From: a virus
DNA: 26,020 nucleotides
Strand: one strand, 5' to 3'
Virus record (IMG/VR): IMGVR_UViG_3300009314_000077
Coordinates: 1 to 26,020 of that record
A program made the position numbers and the translations under genes. Below the pieces are notes generated by a model. The model had not been told where the DNA came from. It was given only the letters and a program-made list of their open reading frames with translations, and did no database searches. Positions 2,601 through 15,447 of this stretch are shown here, piece by piece. Numbering within the stretch: position 1 is the first letter of the stretch; each line of letters begins with the position of its first letter.

Positions 2601-3107
2601 TTATGGCAGAGTGTTTGCTACACTCATTATTAAAAGGTTAAATTTCTCTACATAGGCATCGCCACCCTCTCCTGGACCAAAATCCGTTATCCCCAAAATC
2701 AATCTTGTCTCATTGACCACTCTTTCCCATTCTTTTTGCCAATCATGAGACCATATAAGGACATGTTTATCGTCTTTTTTTGCTTTCGGCTTATCGTAGA
2801 AATAATCAGCAATATCTTTGGCCATATGATGTTCTACCCCAAACTTTCTTAATGCCAGTTTGAATTTGCTTGCTTTTATGGGATCGTCCAATGGCTCACC
2901 TAATGTTTCTAAATCGGTTTGCAATATTTCTAAATCAGCCTCTAACTTAATAATGTCTTCTTTGATTTTCTCTACTTCCTCGCTTTTTTGATATTCTTCA
3001 ATTATCTCTGGGGCTTCTTTTATTGCAACGCCCAAAAGCATTGTTATGCCCAACGCAGTTAAAATTGCTAATATTTTTTTTAGTTTGTCTTGGCTTGTTG
3101 TTGTCAT
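2601..3107 (-). CDS. Membrane-anchored coiled-coil protein, function unknown
   Basis: This 168-residue protein has a hydrophobic helix at about residues 10-28, then a charged coiled coil (about residues 35-75) with heptad-like leucine and isoleucine spacing, and a soluble C-terminal domain with several tryptophans (IWSHDWQKEWERVV). Its start overlaps the recombinase stop by four bases. I do not recognise the family. The N-terminal anchor plus coiled coil would suit a protein in the cell envelope during DNA entry or lysis, or a virion internal protein, but that is speculation. Confidence 0.7.
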   Translation of the reverse strand: MTTTSQDKLKKILAILTALGITMLLGVAIKEAPEIIEEYQKSEEVEKIKEDIIKLEADLEILQTDLETLGEPLDDPIKASKFKLALRKFGVEHHMAKDIADYFYDKPKAKKDDKHVLIWSHDWQKEWERVVNETRLILGITDFGPGEGGDAYVEKFNLLIMSVANTLP

Positions 3108-3934
3108 AAGTAGCTTGGTATATGGAACCGATATTCTTTTTGGATTCTTTCGGGGGTTAGGTGCGTGTATAGCATTGTAGTTTCTATCCTGGAATGGCCG
3201 GCAAATTGCTGGACTGCTACTATATTCGCCCCCCTATCTATCAAATGGCTGATAAAAGAATGCCTGAACAGATGGGGATAAACTCTCTTTTTTATCTTGG
3301 CCCGCCTTGCTACTACCTTCACCATTTTTCTTAAGGCCCAGCCGTTATAATCTCTTTTCAATACCAATGTTTCAAACAATCTTTTCTTTTTCTCTCTCCC
3401 ATAATCTCTAAGATATTTGATAATCGTTCTACCGCATTCCTTGCTCATTGGCACTATCCTATCCTTTTTCAGCTTGCCACCGATTACTTTTACCAAATTA
3501 TTGTCCAAGTCTATGTTTTTTACTTTTAATTGGCATAATTCTTTGTTTCTCAAGCCACAGTAAGCCAGAATGCTGATCATCGCTTTTTCCCTGCTGTTCT
3601 TGGTTGCCGCTAAAATTCTTGCTATTTCGCCTTCTGTTAAAATTTCTCTTGTTGGTAGTGTGTTCGGCCTCCTGGGTCTATGCCAGTCAATTACCCTGCC
3701 GATAAACTCCATATATCTACTAATAATCACTCCCGAATTGGATATATGGGAATAGGGATAATCCTTTTTCCTCATTTCCGCCAAATAGGTTTCGGCTCGT
3801 TGTCGTTTCGGCTTACTTGTTCCGATGTCCTTAATAAACTTTTTAAGAACTCTTTTGTAATTTGCGACTGTTATTAGCTCAAATCCGTGTTTTATGAGCA
3901 AAGAATCATAAAATTGTTCTTCTTTGCTGGCCAT
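3104..3934 (-). CDS. Tyrosine recombinase (integrase/Xer-like)
   Basis: This 276-residue protein has the full catalytic set of a tyrosine recombinase: R129 (in GLRNKEL), K154 (beta-hairpin GGKLKKDR), H221 and R224 (HLFRHSF), H247 (GHSRIETT) and the nucleophile Y256 (MLYTHLT). An N-terminal SAM-like core-binding domain occupies roughly residues 1-90. Length is slightly below that of XerC/XerD (about 300). The enzyme should cut and rejoin DNA through a 3'-phosphotyrosine link. Its site is unusual: it lies inside the structural gene run, nine bases after the fibre gene and overlapping the next gene by four bases, so it would be transcribed with late genes. Integration, genome dimer resolution or rearrangement of the neighbouring fibre gene are all possible; no attachment site was identified. 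Confidence 0.93.
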   Translation of the reverse strand: MASKEEQFYDSLLIKHGFELITVANYKRVLKKFIKDIGTSKPKRQRAETYLAEMRKKDYPYSHISNSGVIISRYMEFIGRVIDWHRPRRPNTLPTREILTEGEIARILAATKNSREKAMISILAYCGLRNKELCQLKVKNIDLDNNLVKVIGGKLKKDRIVPMSKECGRTIIKYLRDYGREKKKRLFETLVLKRDYNGWALRKMVKVVARRAKIKKRVYPHLFRHSFISHLIDRGANIVAVQQFAGHSRIETTMLYTHLTPERIQKEYRFHIPSYL

Positions 3935-3943
3935 ATTATTACC

Positions 3944-6088
3944 TTAGAAACACGCCACCGCTGGGTCGTGAAGTTTGACATCATTTGTCCCATCGCAATA
4001 ACAGTAATAATTACTCGTGTCGTTATAAAAAATGGTTGCTTCGGGGAAATCAGCCCCACCACAAGGGTCGGCAGTTACCATATCTGCTCTGATCCCGCCA
4101 TCCACGTCTAATTTGGAGACGGGGGCCGTCGTCCCGATGCCGACGTTGCCGTTTGTATCTACAATAAACCTGTCCCCATCCCCCCCTTCTGCTGCACTTA
4201 TCATCAAATCACCAACTACTTCTAATGCTGCATCTGGGGTAGACTTTTTGATACCAACATTACCACTATCTAAGATAAAAATACTGTCTCCTGCACTCCC
4301 GCCGCCTATTGCAGTATAAGTGCCATCATTCCAAACATATCCAGTGCCATCTGCGTCAGATAGCCTTATTACTGCATTAGTACTACCGTGAATATGTAAT
4401 GCGTCTTGCGGCCCTGTCGTCCCGATGCCGACGTTGCCGCTATTGTCAACTCTTAACCTTTCTGAACCAGCCGTAAACAACCCCACAGGAACTGAGCCAA
4501 GCCCACCAAAATAAACTATCCCTCTATGTGGCACAGAGGTAGCTGTGGGATTCCCATAGCCGTAGTTTCCAACTCCAGTCCCTGTAGAATTAATAAGATT
4601 GATAGTTGAATAACCCGCGCTGTTAGTATTTTGAACACTAACCACACCAGCACCTGAGCTATTTGAGGCAACATATAATTTGATATCCGGCCCCGTCGTC
4701 CCGATGCCGACATTGCCACTACTGTTTTCAATATACATGTCTCCATTCAGGTCGATATTATCTCCCGAGCCGATAGTTATATCTCCACCAGAAGCATCTA
4801 TTAGAAGATCATTACTTGTTCCACTAGTTATTAAAGAAGATTGAGTGTTGCTACCTACCAGTGAAATACTATGAGTTCCATCTTCATACACTGCAAATGT
4901 TTGAGAGTTACCGCCGTCATACATTATTAGTAGGTCGTTTTGGGCATTAATCCGTATGTAAGGACTGGTACTATCTATATAAGATAGGTAGCTATCTGAA
5001 CCTACATAGAGTTTATCTACAACTCTAGCATTGTCAACTACGTCCAAATCATAACCCGGTGCTGTTGTGCCTATGCCGACGTTGCCGTCGCTATCTATTC
5101 TGACCTTTTCAGTACTTCCAATATTAAAATGATAAGCGGATGCTTTTGCCGAAAATGCTGCGCTCCCGTCACTTTTTGCTCTCAAATATAGGAGGCCAGG
5201 AGACTCTATAGATAAGTTTGAGTCGTTGTAAATATAAGCTGTCCCGGCCCCTGTACCTGTTTTCTCAAGATTTATTTGTGCAGTAGTTCCATCAGTAATA
5301 TGTAACTTCGCCCCTGGCCCCGTTGTCCCGATGCCGACGTTGCCGCTGGAGTCTATTCTGACCTGTTCCGCATTATTTGTTGAAAATGCTAATTGGCTAG
5401 TGGTCGCCTTGAACATTCCCATTCCTTCTAAAGTTGATACCCCAAAATTAGGGTTAACGGCCGTTCCCGTAACATGCGATCTTATTCTCACATTTGCCAC
5501 AAAGCTGCTTCCACTTTCGTCCCACATAAAATTTGGTGCGCCTGTAACTCCCGGCAGGGTAATTAAATCAACGTCTGTGTCAGAACCAGGGGCGAAATCT
5601 ATACCCGTTATACCTTCAAGGGTTAGTCGGCTTGTTGGCCCTGTCGTCCCGATGCCGACGTTGCCGCCCATAATGCCCAGATTGTCATTGGCTGTCGCCT
5701 GCATATACATACCGCCGTCAGGGTCTAAAATAAGACGATAGCCATCCAAATCTATACTGCTTGAAACGGGGCCACTAAGAACAAGAGATGTATTTATTGT
5801 CGCAGTGTTTATGTCGGCCGTGTCTAAATATGCGCTTAGACGTGTTCCTGTGGCTCCTATTGTAGATGTCCAGGCTGGTAGGTTTGAGGCCGAATGAAGC
5901 ACTTGGTAAGCAGTGCCTTTCCCCAATTTAGCTAAACTATTGGTTGCGTCGGAGTAGAGTATATCGCCTTGGGCATAAGTTCCTGTCCCTGTTCCTCCTT
6001 GAGTAGGAAATAAAACAGTTACAGCTGATGCTGTTGTCGCAATGGAAAACAGTCCAATTATTAAAATGATTCTTAGTGTTTTTTTCAT
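3944..6088 (-). CDS. Fibre-like repeat protein with signal peptide
   Basis: The 714-residue protein opens with a classic signal peptide (two lysines, hydrophobic core, then ATTASA before residue 23). It continues with a GGTGTGTYAQGDILY segment of the type seen in phage tail fibres, followed by seven GNVGIGTTGP-like units (one degenerate, GNVGIKKSTP), each followed by a xxLxV or xxLyI beta-strand. The C-terminus contains a cysteine-rich patch (PCGGADFPEATIFYND, then YYCYCDG). No S74 intramolecular chaperone is visible. The start overlaps the upstream stop as ATGA. Repeats of this kind form trimeric beta fibres in fibre and adhesin proteins. I infer a host-contact fibre or surface adhesin. The signal peptide is atypical for a virion protein and could mean export to the host surface. 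Confidence 0.85.
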   Translation of the reverse strand: MKKTLRIILIIGLFSIATTASAVTVLFPTQGGTGTGTYAQGDILYSDATNSLAKLGKGTAYQVLHSASNLPAWTSTIGATGTRLSAYLDTADINTATINTSLVLSGPVSSSIDLDGYRLILDPDGGMYMQATANDNLGIMGGNVGIGTTGPTSRLTLEGITGIDFAPGSDTDVDLITLPGVTGAPNFMWDESGSSFVANVRIRSHVTGTAVNPNFGVSTLEGMGMFKATTSQLAFSTNNAEQVRIDSSGNVGIGTTGPGAKLHITDGTTAQINLEKTGTGAGTAYIYNDSNLSIESPGLLYLRAKSDGSAAFSAKASAYHFNIGSTEKVRIDSDGNVGIGTTAPGYDLDVVDNARVVDKLYVGSDSYLSYIDSTSPYIRINAQNDLLIMYDGGNSQTFAVYEDGTHSISLVGSNTQSSLITSGTSNDLLIDASGGDITIGSGDNIDLNGDMYIENSSGNVGIGTTGPDIKLYVASNSSGAGVVSVQNTNSAGYSTINLINSTGTGVGNYGYGNPTATSVPHRGIVYFGGLGSVPVGLFTAGSERLRVDNSGNVGIGTTGPQDALHIHGSTNAVIRLSDADGTGYVWNDGTYTAIGGGSAGDSIFILDSGNVGIKKSTPDAALEVVGDLMISAAEGGDGDRFIVDTNGNVGIGTTAPVSKLDVDGGIRADMVTADPCGGADFPEATIFYNDTSNYYCYCDGTNDVKLHDPAVACF
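4128..5665. repeat. Six near-identical 23-bp direct repeats inside the fibre gene
   Basis: Repeat copies lie at 4128-4150, 4416-4438, 4695-4717, 5064-5086, 5322-5344 and 5643-5665. They share the plus-strand core CCGATGCCGACGTTGCC with at most a few differences; the copies at 4128, 4416 and 5643 are identical over 23 bases. They encode the GNVGIGTT motif on the minus strand. Distances between starts are 288, 279, 369, 258 and 321 bases, all multiples of three, so exchange between any two copies keeps the reading frame. A seventh, degenerate unit lies near 4245-4262. Confidence 0.9.
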
Positions 6089-6462
6089 GTTTGGTATCTA
6101 ACTCTTAACACGCTACCCGTTGGAGGAGCGTTTACAAAAGTTATTGTAGATTCTGATAAAGTGTAATCTTCACCGCCGGCTGTTTGGAAAGCGCCATTCA
6201 AATAAACTTCCAGAGAGCCAGAAATGGGGGTAACAGACAGAGTAAAAGTCTTGTTTGACCCATTTATCGTCCCAGAAGGAGTCTCTTCTTGAAACGCACC
6301 TCCTGCGCTGGAAATTGTCTCTGTAACATCGGTTCCAACAGTAGTACCCGAAACGCCTGCTCCCGCAAAGTCAATCGAGGCAACATTATCTACCAAGGAA
6401 ACGCCTTCGTCTTTAATGGTCACCGGCCGGCCGGTTTCTTGCCGATTACGAAAACCAGGCAT
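6085..6462 (-). CDS. Small beta-rich tail/fibre-associated protein
   Basis: This 125-residue protein starts with MPGFRNRQ, then a valine/serine/threonine-rich segment (VDNVASIDFAGAGVSGTTVG) resembling fibre linker repeats. Residues 58-125 form a beta domain with the pattern PSGTINGSNKTFTLS...LEVYLNGA...DYTLSESTITF...GSVLRVRYQT, which I recognise as a common small module of phage tail and fibre proteins. Its last codon overlaps the fibre start by four bases, which suggests coupled synthesis with the fibre. A role as fibre adaptor or tip protein is inference. The N-terminal GFRNRQ echoes the GFKNRQ at the start of the upstream coiled-coil protein. Confidence 0.75.
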   Translation of the reverse strand: MPGFRNRQETGRPVTIKDEGVSLVDNVASIDFAGAGVSGTTVGTDVTETISSAGGAFQEETPSGTINGSNKTFTLSVTPISGSLEVYLNGAFQTAGGEDYTLSESTITFVNAPPTGSVLRVRYQT

Positions 6463-15074: not shown

Positions 15075-15447
15075 ATTCTACTTTAGTGCCAGCTTTTAAT
15101 TTTCTTGCGGCCAATTCGTCTGGAGAATAAACTCTACTATCCTCAATTTCTTCTTTCCTTAAAGTTAAATTAACTCCTAATGAGGCCTTTGGATAGGGCT
15201 TTTTAAAGCCGTGTAATTCAAACCACTCATTATGCTCTTTGGTGTATTCTTTATAAACAAAACGGCTGGATTTAAAGACAGCTTTGGCATTTTCAACCTT
15301 TTCTGGTAAATACTCATAATAACCGATCCCCCCTGCTATTTTTTTAGGATCGGTGGATTTCTTTTCTGCGATTTTTAATTCTTCAAGAGTGCTTGTTTTC
15401 TCGAGAACAAAGATTGCGATTTTTTTTAAGATGTTCTTCATGCTCAT
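15052..15447 (-). CDS. Hypothetical protein downstream of methyltransferase
   Basis: This 131-residue protein starts MSMKNILKKIAIFVLEKT, with a weak hydrophobic helix, and continues into a soluble part with YYEYLPEKVENAKAVFKSS, then WFELHGFKKPYPKASLG and a C-terminal VYSPDELAARKLKAGTKVEY. It lies 12 bases after the methyltransferase stop. No family is recognised; the linked position does not by itself imply a role in modification. Confidence 0.6.
   Translation of the reverse strand: MSMKNILKKIAIFVLEKTSTLEELKIAEKKSTDPKKIAGGIGYYEYLPEKVENAKAVFKSSRFVYKEYTKEHNEWFELHGFKKPYPKASLGVNLTLRKEEIEDSRVYSPDELAARKLKAGTKVEYAKNKKT

Follow-up and report, generated by a model that had tools for sequence, protein, structure and literature searches.

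A repeated capping-loop motif as a probable recombination joint in viral fibre genes

We analysed a fibre gene in a viral contig from IMG/VR (record IMGVR_UViG_3300009314_000077, positions 1 to 26,020; this whole 26,020-nt stretch is referred to as the window) and propose that its repeated motif, GNVGIGTT, is a structural boundary that probably doubles as a homologous-recombination joint for the shuffling of fibre modules. The copies are alike at the DNA level, this likeness is confined to about 30 nt, homology between related fibre genes breaks at the motif in metagenomic contigs as well as cultured phages, and a hybrid motif stands at a deletion junction. The recombination would be homologous in kind, either RecA-type or by phage annealing. 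The motif is a known structural element, and its DNA is common to bacteria, archaea and viruses, both of which were missed by the original prediction.

Layout of the fibre gene and its product

The fibre gene and its neighbours are laid out as follows (window coordinates):

6085–6462, minus strand: tail-fibre-like ORF upstream (PHROG), its end sharing 4 nt with the fibre gene's start
3944–6088, minus strand: fibre gene, modular, 714 aa, with repeated capping-loop motif (ORF, PHROG and PDB matches)
6023–6088, minus strand: Sec-type signal peptide, MKKTLRIILIIGLFSIATTASA (simple hydrophobicity rule and inspection)
5864–6019, minus strand: N-terminal FPTQGGTGTGTYAQGDILY segment, also present in other fibre-like genes and in the relative L151
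5642–5665, minus strand: motif copy 1, GGCAACGTCGGCATCGGGACGACA
5321–5344, minus strand: motif copy 2, GGCAACGTCGGCATCGGGACAACG
5063–5086, minus strand: motif copy 3, GGCAACGTCGGCATAGGCACAACA
4694–4717, minus strand: motif copy 4, GGCAATGTCGGCATCGGGACGACG
4415–4438, minus strand: motif copy 5, GGCAACGTCGGCATCGGGACGACA (same as copy 1)
4241–4264, minus strand: decayed seventh copy, GNVGIKKS, with non-canonical codons, GGTAATGTTGGTATC
4127–4150, minus strand: motif copy 6, GGCAACGTCGGCATCGGGACGACG
3104–3934, minus strand: tyrosine recombinase, directly downstream of the fibre gene (PF00589)

The N-terminal part covers 141 aa and the units after the six GNVGIGTT copies cover 107, 86, 123, 93, 96 and 68 aa; segments between copies are unequal in length (86–123 aa) and unrelated in sequence. 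The protein matches PHROG tail fibre families 9942 and 18345, gives no match in Pfam or NCBIfam at E 0.01, and aligns by sequence with solved fibres of the Bdellovibrio mosaic adhesive trimer (MAT) type (8ond, 8ojn, 8oml and 8on4; the PDB contains mainly the tips of such fibres). An AlphaFold single-chain model was uninformative (pLDDT 35). The product is probably a modular adhesive fibre, trimeric in form.

A capping loop is described by Caulton et al. (2024; PMC10769870), in the passages drawn on here, for the MAT of Bdellovibrio bacteriovorus and for S74 phage fibres, with a consensus printed as V-G-G/N-pi-X-X-P-X-X-X-L. We read this consensus as printed without one residue, and VGIGTTxPxxxL would fit it with a residue placed after V-G. 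Judged by sequence, the GNVGIGTT peptide is this known capping loop of trimeric beta-helix fibres.

Silent-site identity of the motif copies

As originally predicted, the gene contains six in-frame copies of the motif, and the first 23 bases are identical in the copies given as 4128, 4416 and 5643. An identical 20-mer, GGCAACGTCGGCATCGGGAC, is present in four of the six. Spacings between copies (288, 279, 369, 258 and 321 nt) are all multiples of three, also as claimed, but this adds no evidence because any in-frame repeat must give such spacing. Identical codons were found in 88 of 120 same-residue motif pairs, compared with 40 expected from the gene's own codon usage, and none of 100,000 simulations reached this count (P < 1e-5). 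GC3 is 0.85 in the motif and 0.34 in the remainder of the gene, and GTC and ACG, used repeatedly in the motif, are the gene's rarest Val and Thr codons. The earlier expectation that silent sites are more alike than protein-level selection explains therefore stood up, with codon usage also taken into account, and the synonymous-site comparison that it proposed, repeats versus intervening segments, places the excess in the motif and leaves same-residue codon pairs in the flanks near expectation (16/31 versus 12.6 and 20/42 versus 13.6).

Six copies in one gene might point to recent tandem duplication of units, which would explain identical copies and was previously named as the plain alternative. 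We give it almost no weight: it is refuted for the window gene by units that are unrelated and unequal, same-residue codons in the flanks show little excess, and no relatives of units 1–4 and 6 turned up in the fetched loci.

The same behaviour was seen in other viral genes. In a sample of contigs drawn with a protein-level degenerate pattern, among the matches listed, 66 multi-copy ORFs were usable; where the flanks were unrelated, motif copies had more codons in common than the ORF's own usage predicts in 58 of them (mean +0.216, P = 2e-10), compared with a flank excess of +0.04. The proportions were 79/87 and 57/59 in two exact-motif sets, which were themselves selected on sequence, and the motif excess ranged from +0.22 to +0.37. 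It spans codons 0 to about +10 (~30 nt) and is absent at the conserved L/V positions +12 to +17. Longer identical words in these ORFs show an excess of 0.10–0.20, some of them probably being other repeats.

Could codon usage, translation or codon-pair context fix the silent sites? Chance identical tetrapeptides elsewhere in the same ORFs do show a small excess (0.04–0.07, about +0.06), but this is well short of the motif values, the motif uses the window gene's rarest Val and Thr codons, and in an even draw of 192 Patescibacteria species, 16 have the GC-rich canonical 20-mer and none has the AT-type synonym. This explanation is accordingly highly improbable.

Between viruses, motif codon identity is as expected and follows each virus's own codon usage. 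A universal DNA constraint across all viruses was rejected on this basis; no single DNA form is therefore required everywhere, and if identity counts at all, it does so only inside a lineage.

Homology breaks between related fibre genes

Fibre ORFs of different loci were compared for blocks of ≥85% identity that stop abruptly, and 16 of 38 unique breaks fell at the motif in both partners, compared with 4.1 expected (P < 1e-5). In the null the two positions were linked, the larger chance was taken and each ORF's own motif positions were used, which allows for the loci having been fetched for carrying the motif. Widening the zone by 12 nt brings the expectation for the 16/38 to 6.1 (P = 1e-4), and an identity cut-off of 80% gives 31/70 breaks at the motif versus 7.9 expected. 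About half of all breaks lie outside the motif, several of them at the end of the N-terminal anchor. Three fibre ORFs (L017, L048 and L077) carry motif copies beside long repetitive segments that self-align at many offsets and give the impression of being collagen-like; these were left out of the breakpoint statistics.

Complete genomes of cultured phages provide individual cases. S-TIM5 and S-TIM66 share 501 nt at 99.4% identity ending 3 nt before the motif, after which about 1.1 kb is replaced, followed by 3662 nt at 99.5%. HTVC142P and Jormungand have a short common N-terminal anchor and an unrelated middle, and from motif position −24 to the gene end share 1035 nt at 99.7%. S-TIM5 and S-SKS1, which belong to different genera, have a common 324-nt segment that runs from motif position −2 in both to the next motif of S-SKS1.

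Two metagenomic loci, L451 and L427, are 99.8% identical over 4 kb upstream, and L451 is the longer by 525 nt, an indel of two units with motif copies at its boundaries. The junction motif in L427 is a hybrid of both L451 copies, with further changes. Downstream of the junction, around nt 558 of its fibre ORF, L427 also has a frameshift and an exact tandem duplication of 77 nt, which may be an assembly fault (an assembler k-mer artefact), and the case is for this reason weaker than those from isolates. Another pair considered as a unit variant, L339 and L447, was rejected because L447 simply stops at the edge of the fetched locus.

The duplication in L427 and the many metagenomic motif matches near contig ends raise the possibility that short-read assembly produced collapses or false joins at the repeat. 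For the family this is refuted by the same breakpoints in complete cultured-phage genomes; in addition, a complete CPR chromosome (CP066689) has 49 motif copies in any codons, and a second contig matches the whole window fibre gene save for 4 SNPs, leaving an assembly artefact with a negligible probability.

That second contig (L149, 16,866 bp) has the same six motif copies and no indel relative to the window, and it is the sole near-identical fibre gene available; the search for unit-number variants proposed earlier thus finds none for the window gene. The broader claim that units are lost, gained or swapped is borne out in related genes, at the motif, and not in the window virus. All four SNPs in the 16.9 kb shared with L149 fall within 15 bp of one fibre unit (4571–4585; T502A plus silent changes). 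This resembles a conversion patch and is not specific, because a similar cluster exists in another gene, where five of six SNPs in 10.6 kb between the window and locus L170 fall in 49 bp (15178–15226). In L151, whose major capsid protein is 80% identical to that of the window virus, the gene at the same place has a similar signal peptide and FPTQGGTG start, a different body and one GNVGIGTT copy.

We propose that the peptide RIDSSGNVGIGTTxPxxKLxV is a capping loop that would end one beta-helical segment and start the next. The first 20–30 nt of DNA are the same in every segment, so that this stretch could act as a homologous-recombination joint; a crossover there, whether between copies in one gene or between the fibre genes of different genomes, would delete, add or replace whole segments. 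Exchanges of this kind would stay in frame and be joined where the fold tolerates it, and repeated exchange through the joint would keep the copies alike at silent sites. The window gene itself presumably shuffles in this way; shuffling is seen in its relatives, by comparison of sequences.

The main rival to this reading is a structural filter alone, in which illegitimate recombination occurs at random, only joins at capping loops fold, and the shared DNA travels along with modules descended from a common pool. It is consistent with the motif being a structural boundary (PMC10769870), with its adherence to local codon usage between viruses, and with breakpoints in some isolates (S-TIM5/S-TIM66) that sit where both motifs now differ in DNA. 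It does not readily explain why within-gene homogenisation of silent sites covers only ~30 nt and spares neighbouring conserved residues, or why the L427/L451 junction carries a hybrid motif. Because the homogenised tract is so short and the junction motif is a hybrid, we favour the capping loop as a joint, and consider a filter alone unlikely.

If the capping loop is a joint, a known structural element of adhesive fibres becomes a predictable recombination joint, and module boundaries and exchange networks would become findable from DNA alone. The joint would also link phage fibre genes with surface proteins of CPR and DPANN lineages, small-celled groups whose partner-recognition proteins are poorly known, and it makes testable whether silent-site identity at the joint leads to higher exchange rates.

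Spread of the motif DNA and comparison with known systems

The window 20-mer was found in at least 116 genome-contig stretches, whereas chance would give about 0.5 in 257 Gb. Among the matches listed, bacterial carriers include Patescibacteria, Elusimicrobia, Omnitrophota, Bacteroidota, Phycisphaerae, Acidobacteria and Nitrospirota, and archaeal carriers include Woesearchaeota, Aenigmatarchaeota, Nanoarchaeota, Diapherotrites, Thermoplasmatota and Methanosarcinales. These contigs are mostly from MAGs, for which mis-binning is possible; some are long (623 kb in Woesearchaeota and 440 kb in archaeon AR5). The loci have a GC content of 28–70% and their ORFs with this exact form a GC3 of 0.21 to 0.86, again among the matches listed, and the same rare-codon 20-mer in hosts of such different GC is a further point against the structural filter. 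The motif is encoded by 63 of the 192 Patescibacteria species, with 372 copies in summed counts, and the canonical 20-mer, one of 1536 synonymous forms, accounts for 50 copies in its 16 species. Five ORFs of the protein-level viral sample contain the exact 21-mer, versus 0.03 expected from their own codon usage. Cultured phages and plasmids gave no full match to the canonical DNA, the best being 92% over 25 nt in S-CRES1 and S-CRES2. As a tentative extension, which we regard as possible rather than probable, GGCAACGTCGGCATCGGGAC may be a DNA adapter common to viruses, CPR bacteria, DPANN and other archaea, kept for the exchange of adhesin modules between unrelated genomes, including across domains.

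The fibre resembles the MAT superfamily, which is characterized by a conserved ~130-aa beta-rich N-terminal domain after a signal peptide and by a trimeric beta-prism/beta-helix fold, according to the parts of PMC10769870 consulted. MAT and S74 fibres likewise have a signal peptide, a capping-loop peptide repeated along the fibre and an architecture that the authors, from structures, call chimeric; the likeness to MAT rests on the two features compared, signal peptide and capping loops. The same passages differ in treating the loop as structure and contain no DNA-level repeats or recombination joint, and the window gene is viral. The C-terminal Peptidase_S74 domain of S74 fibres is absent from the window fibre (Pfam, E 0.01).

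In mechanism, the closest system is that of the T-even phage adhesin joints (Tetart et al. 1998, J Mol Biol 282:543, as relayed in passages of PMC3797505 and PMC6027323). Those passages concern gp37/gp38 and a glycine-rich motif in T4 relatives, whereas here a capping loop is found in phages, bacteria and archaea, and PHROG and Pfam scans of the window fibre gave other fibre families or none, not gp37/gp38. The joint proposed here would work in a similar way but has another motif and occurs far more widely. A 2023 study of protein-fragment shuffling in phages identified tail fibres as a mosaicism hotspot (PMC10684548); it worked at the level of protein profiles, and the passages drawn on name no DNA joint. 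The Gracilibacterium PTD repeat gene (PMC6851277), which encodes a repeat in a CPR surface protein, also behaves unusually at synonymous sites, but in the opposite way to the window motif: its peptide stays constant while the synonymous sites vary. No paper with the peptide (GNVGIGT, VGIGTT) or the DNA string came up in full-text searches, most subscription journals being outside their scope. No reverse transcriptase, as in a diversity-generating retroelement, was found among the subset of ORFs scanned on this contig, which is a fragment.

Site-specific recombination was also considered, in which the adjacent tyrosine recombinase (3104–3934) would act on the repeats in the manner of a shufflon. 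Its gene lies 9 nt beyond the end of the fibre gene and a weak dyad, CGTC...GACG, lies inside the motif. However, Rci-type shufflons combine inverted repeats with an adjacent tyrosine recombinase, whereas the window repeats are direct and the recombinase is rarely adjacent elsewhere: in partial loci, and with a test that detects only relatives of the window enzyme, one adjoined motif genes in 3 of 115 exact-motif viral loci (one from the window's own lineage) and in none of the 116 listed genome loci or the 120 viral loci sampled at protein level. Nor did the dyad, as a possible hairpin, show covariation beyond the linkage of neighbouring silent sites (codons 2–5, P = 0.015 among 21 tests). 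A shufflon-like process is very unlikely, and with so few other adjacent loci the enzyme is unsupported as a general partner. Its best NCBIfam model is the archaeal XerA (181.7 bits, below the cut-off of 220); in contrast, the window capsid protein resembles Bacillus phage capsids (37–39%).

A signal peptide is unusual for a tail fibre. Because it suggests export, the product may, instead of serving as a tail fibre, be an adhesin displayed on the surface of the infected or lysogenic cell, and could then be lysogenic cargo beside the integrase gene. The simple rule assigns a signal peptide to 57% of the ORFs in the genome set, 27% of those in the exact-motif viral set and 5% of those in the protein-level viral sample.
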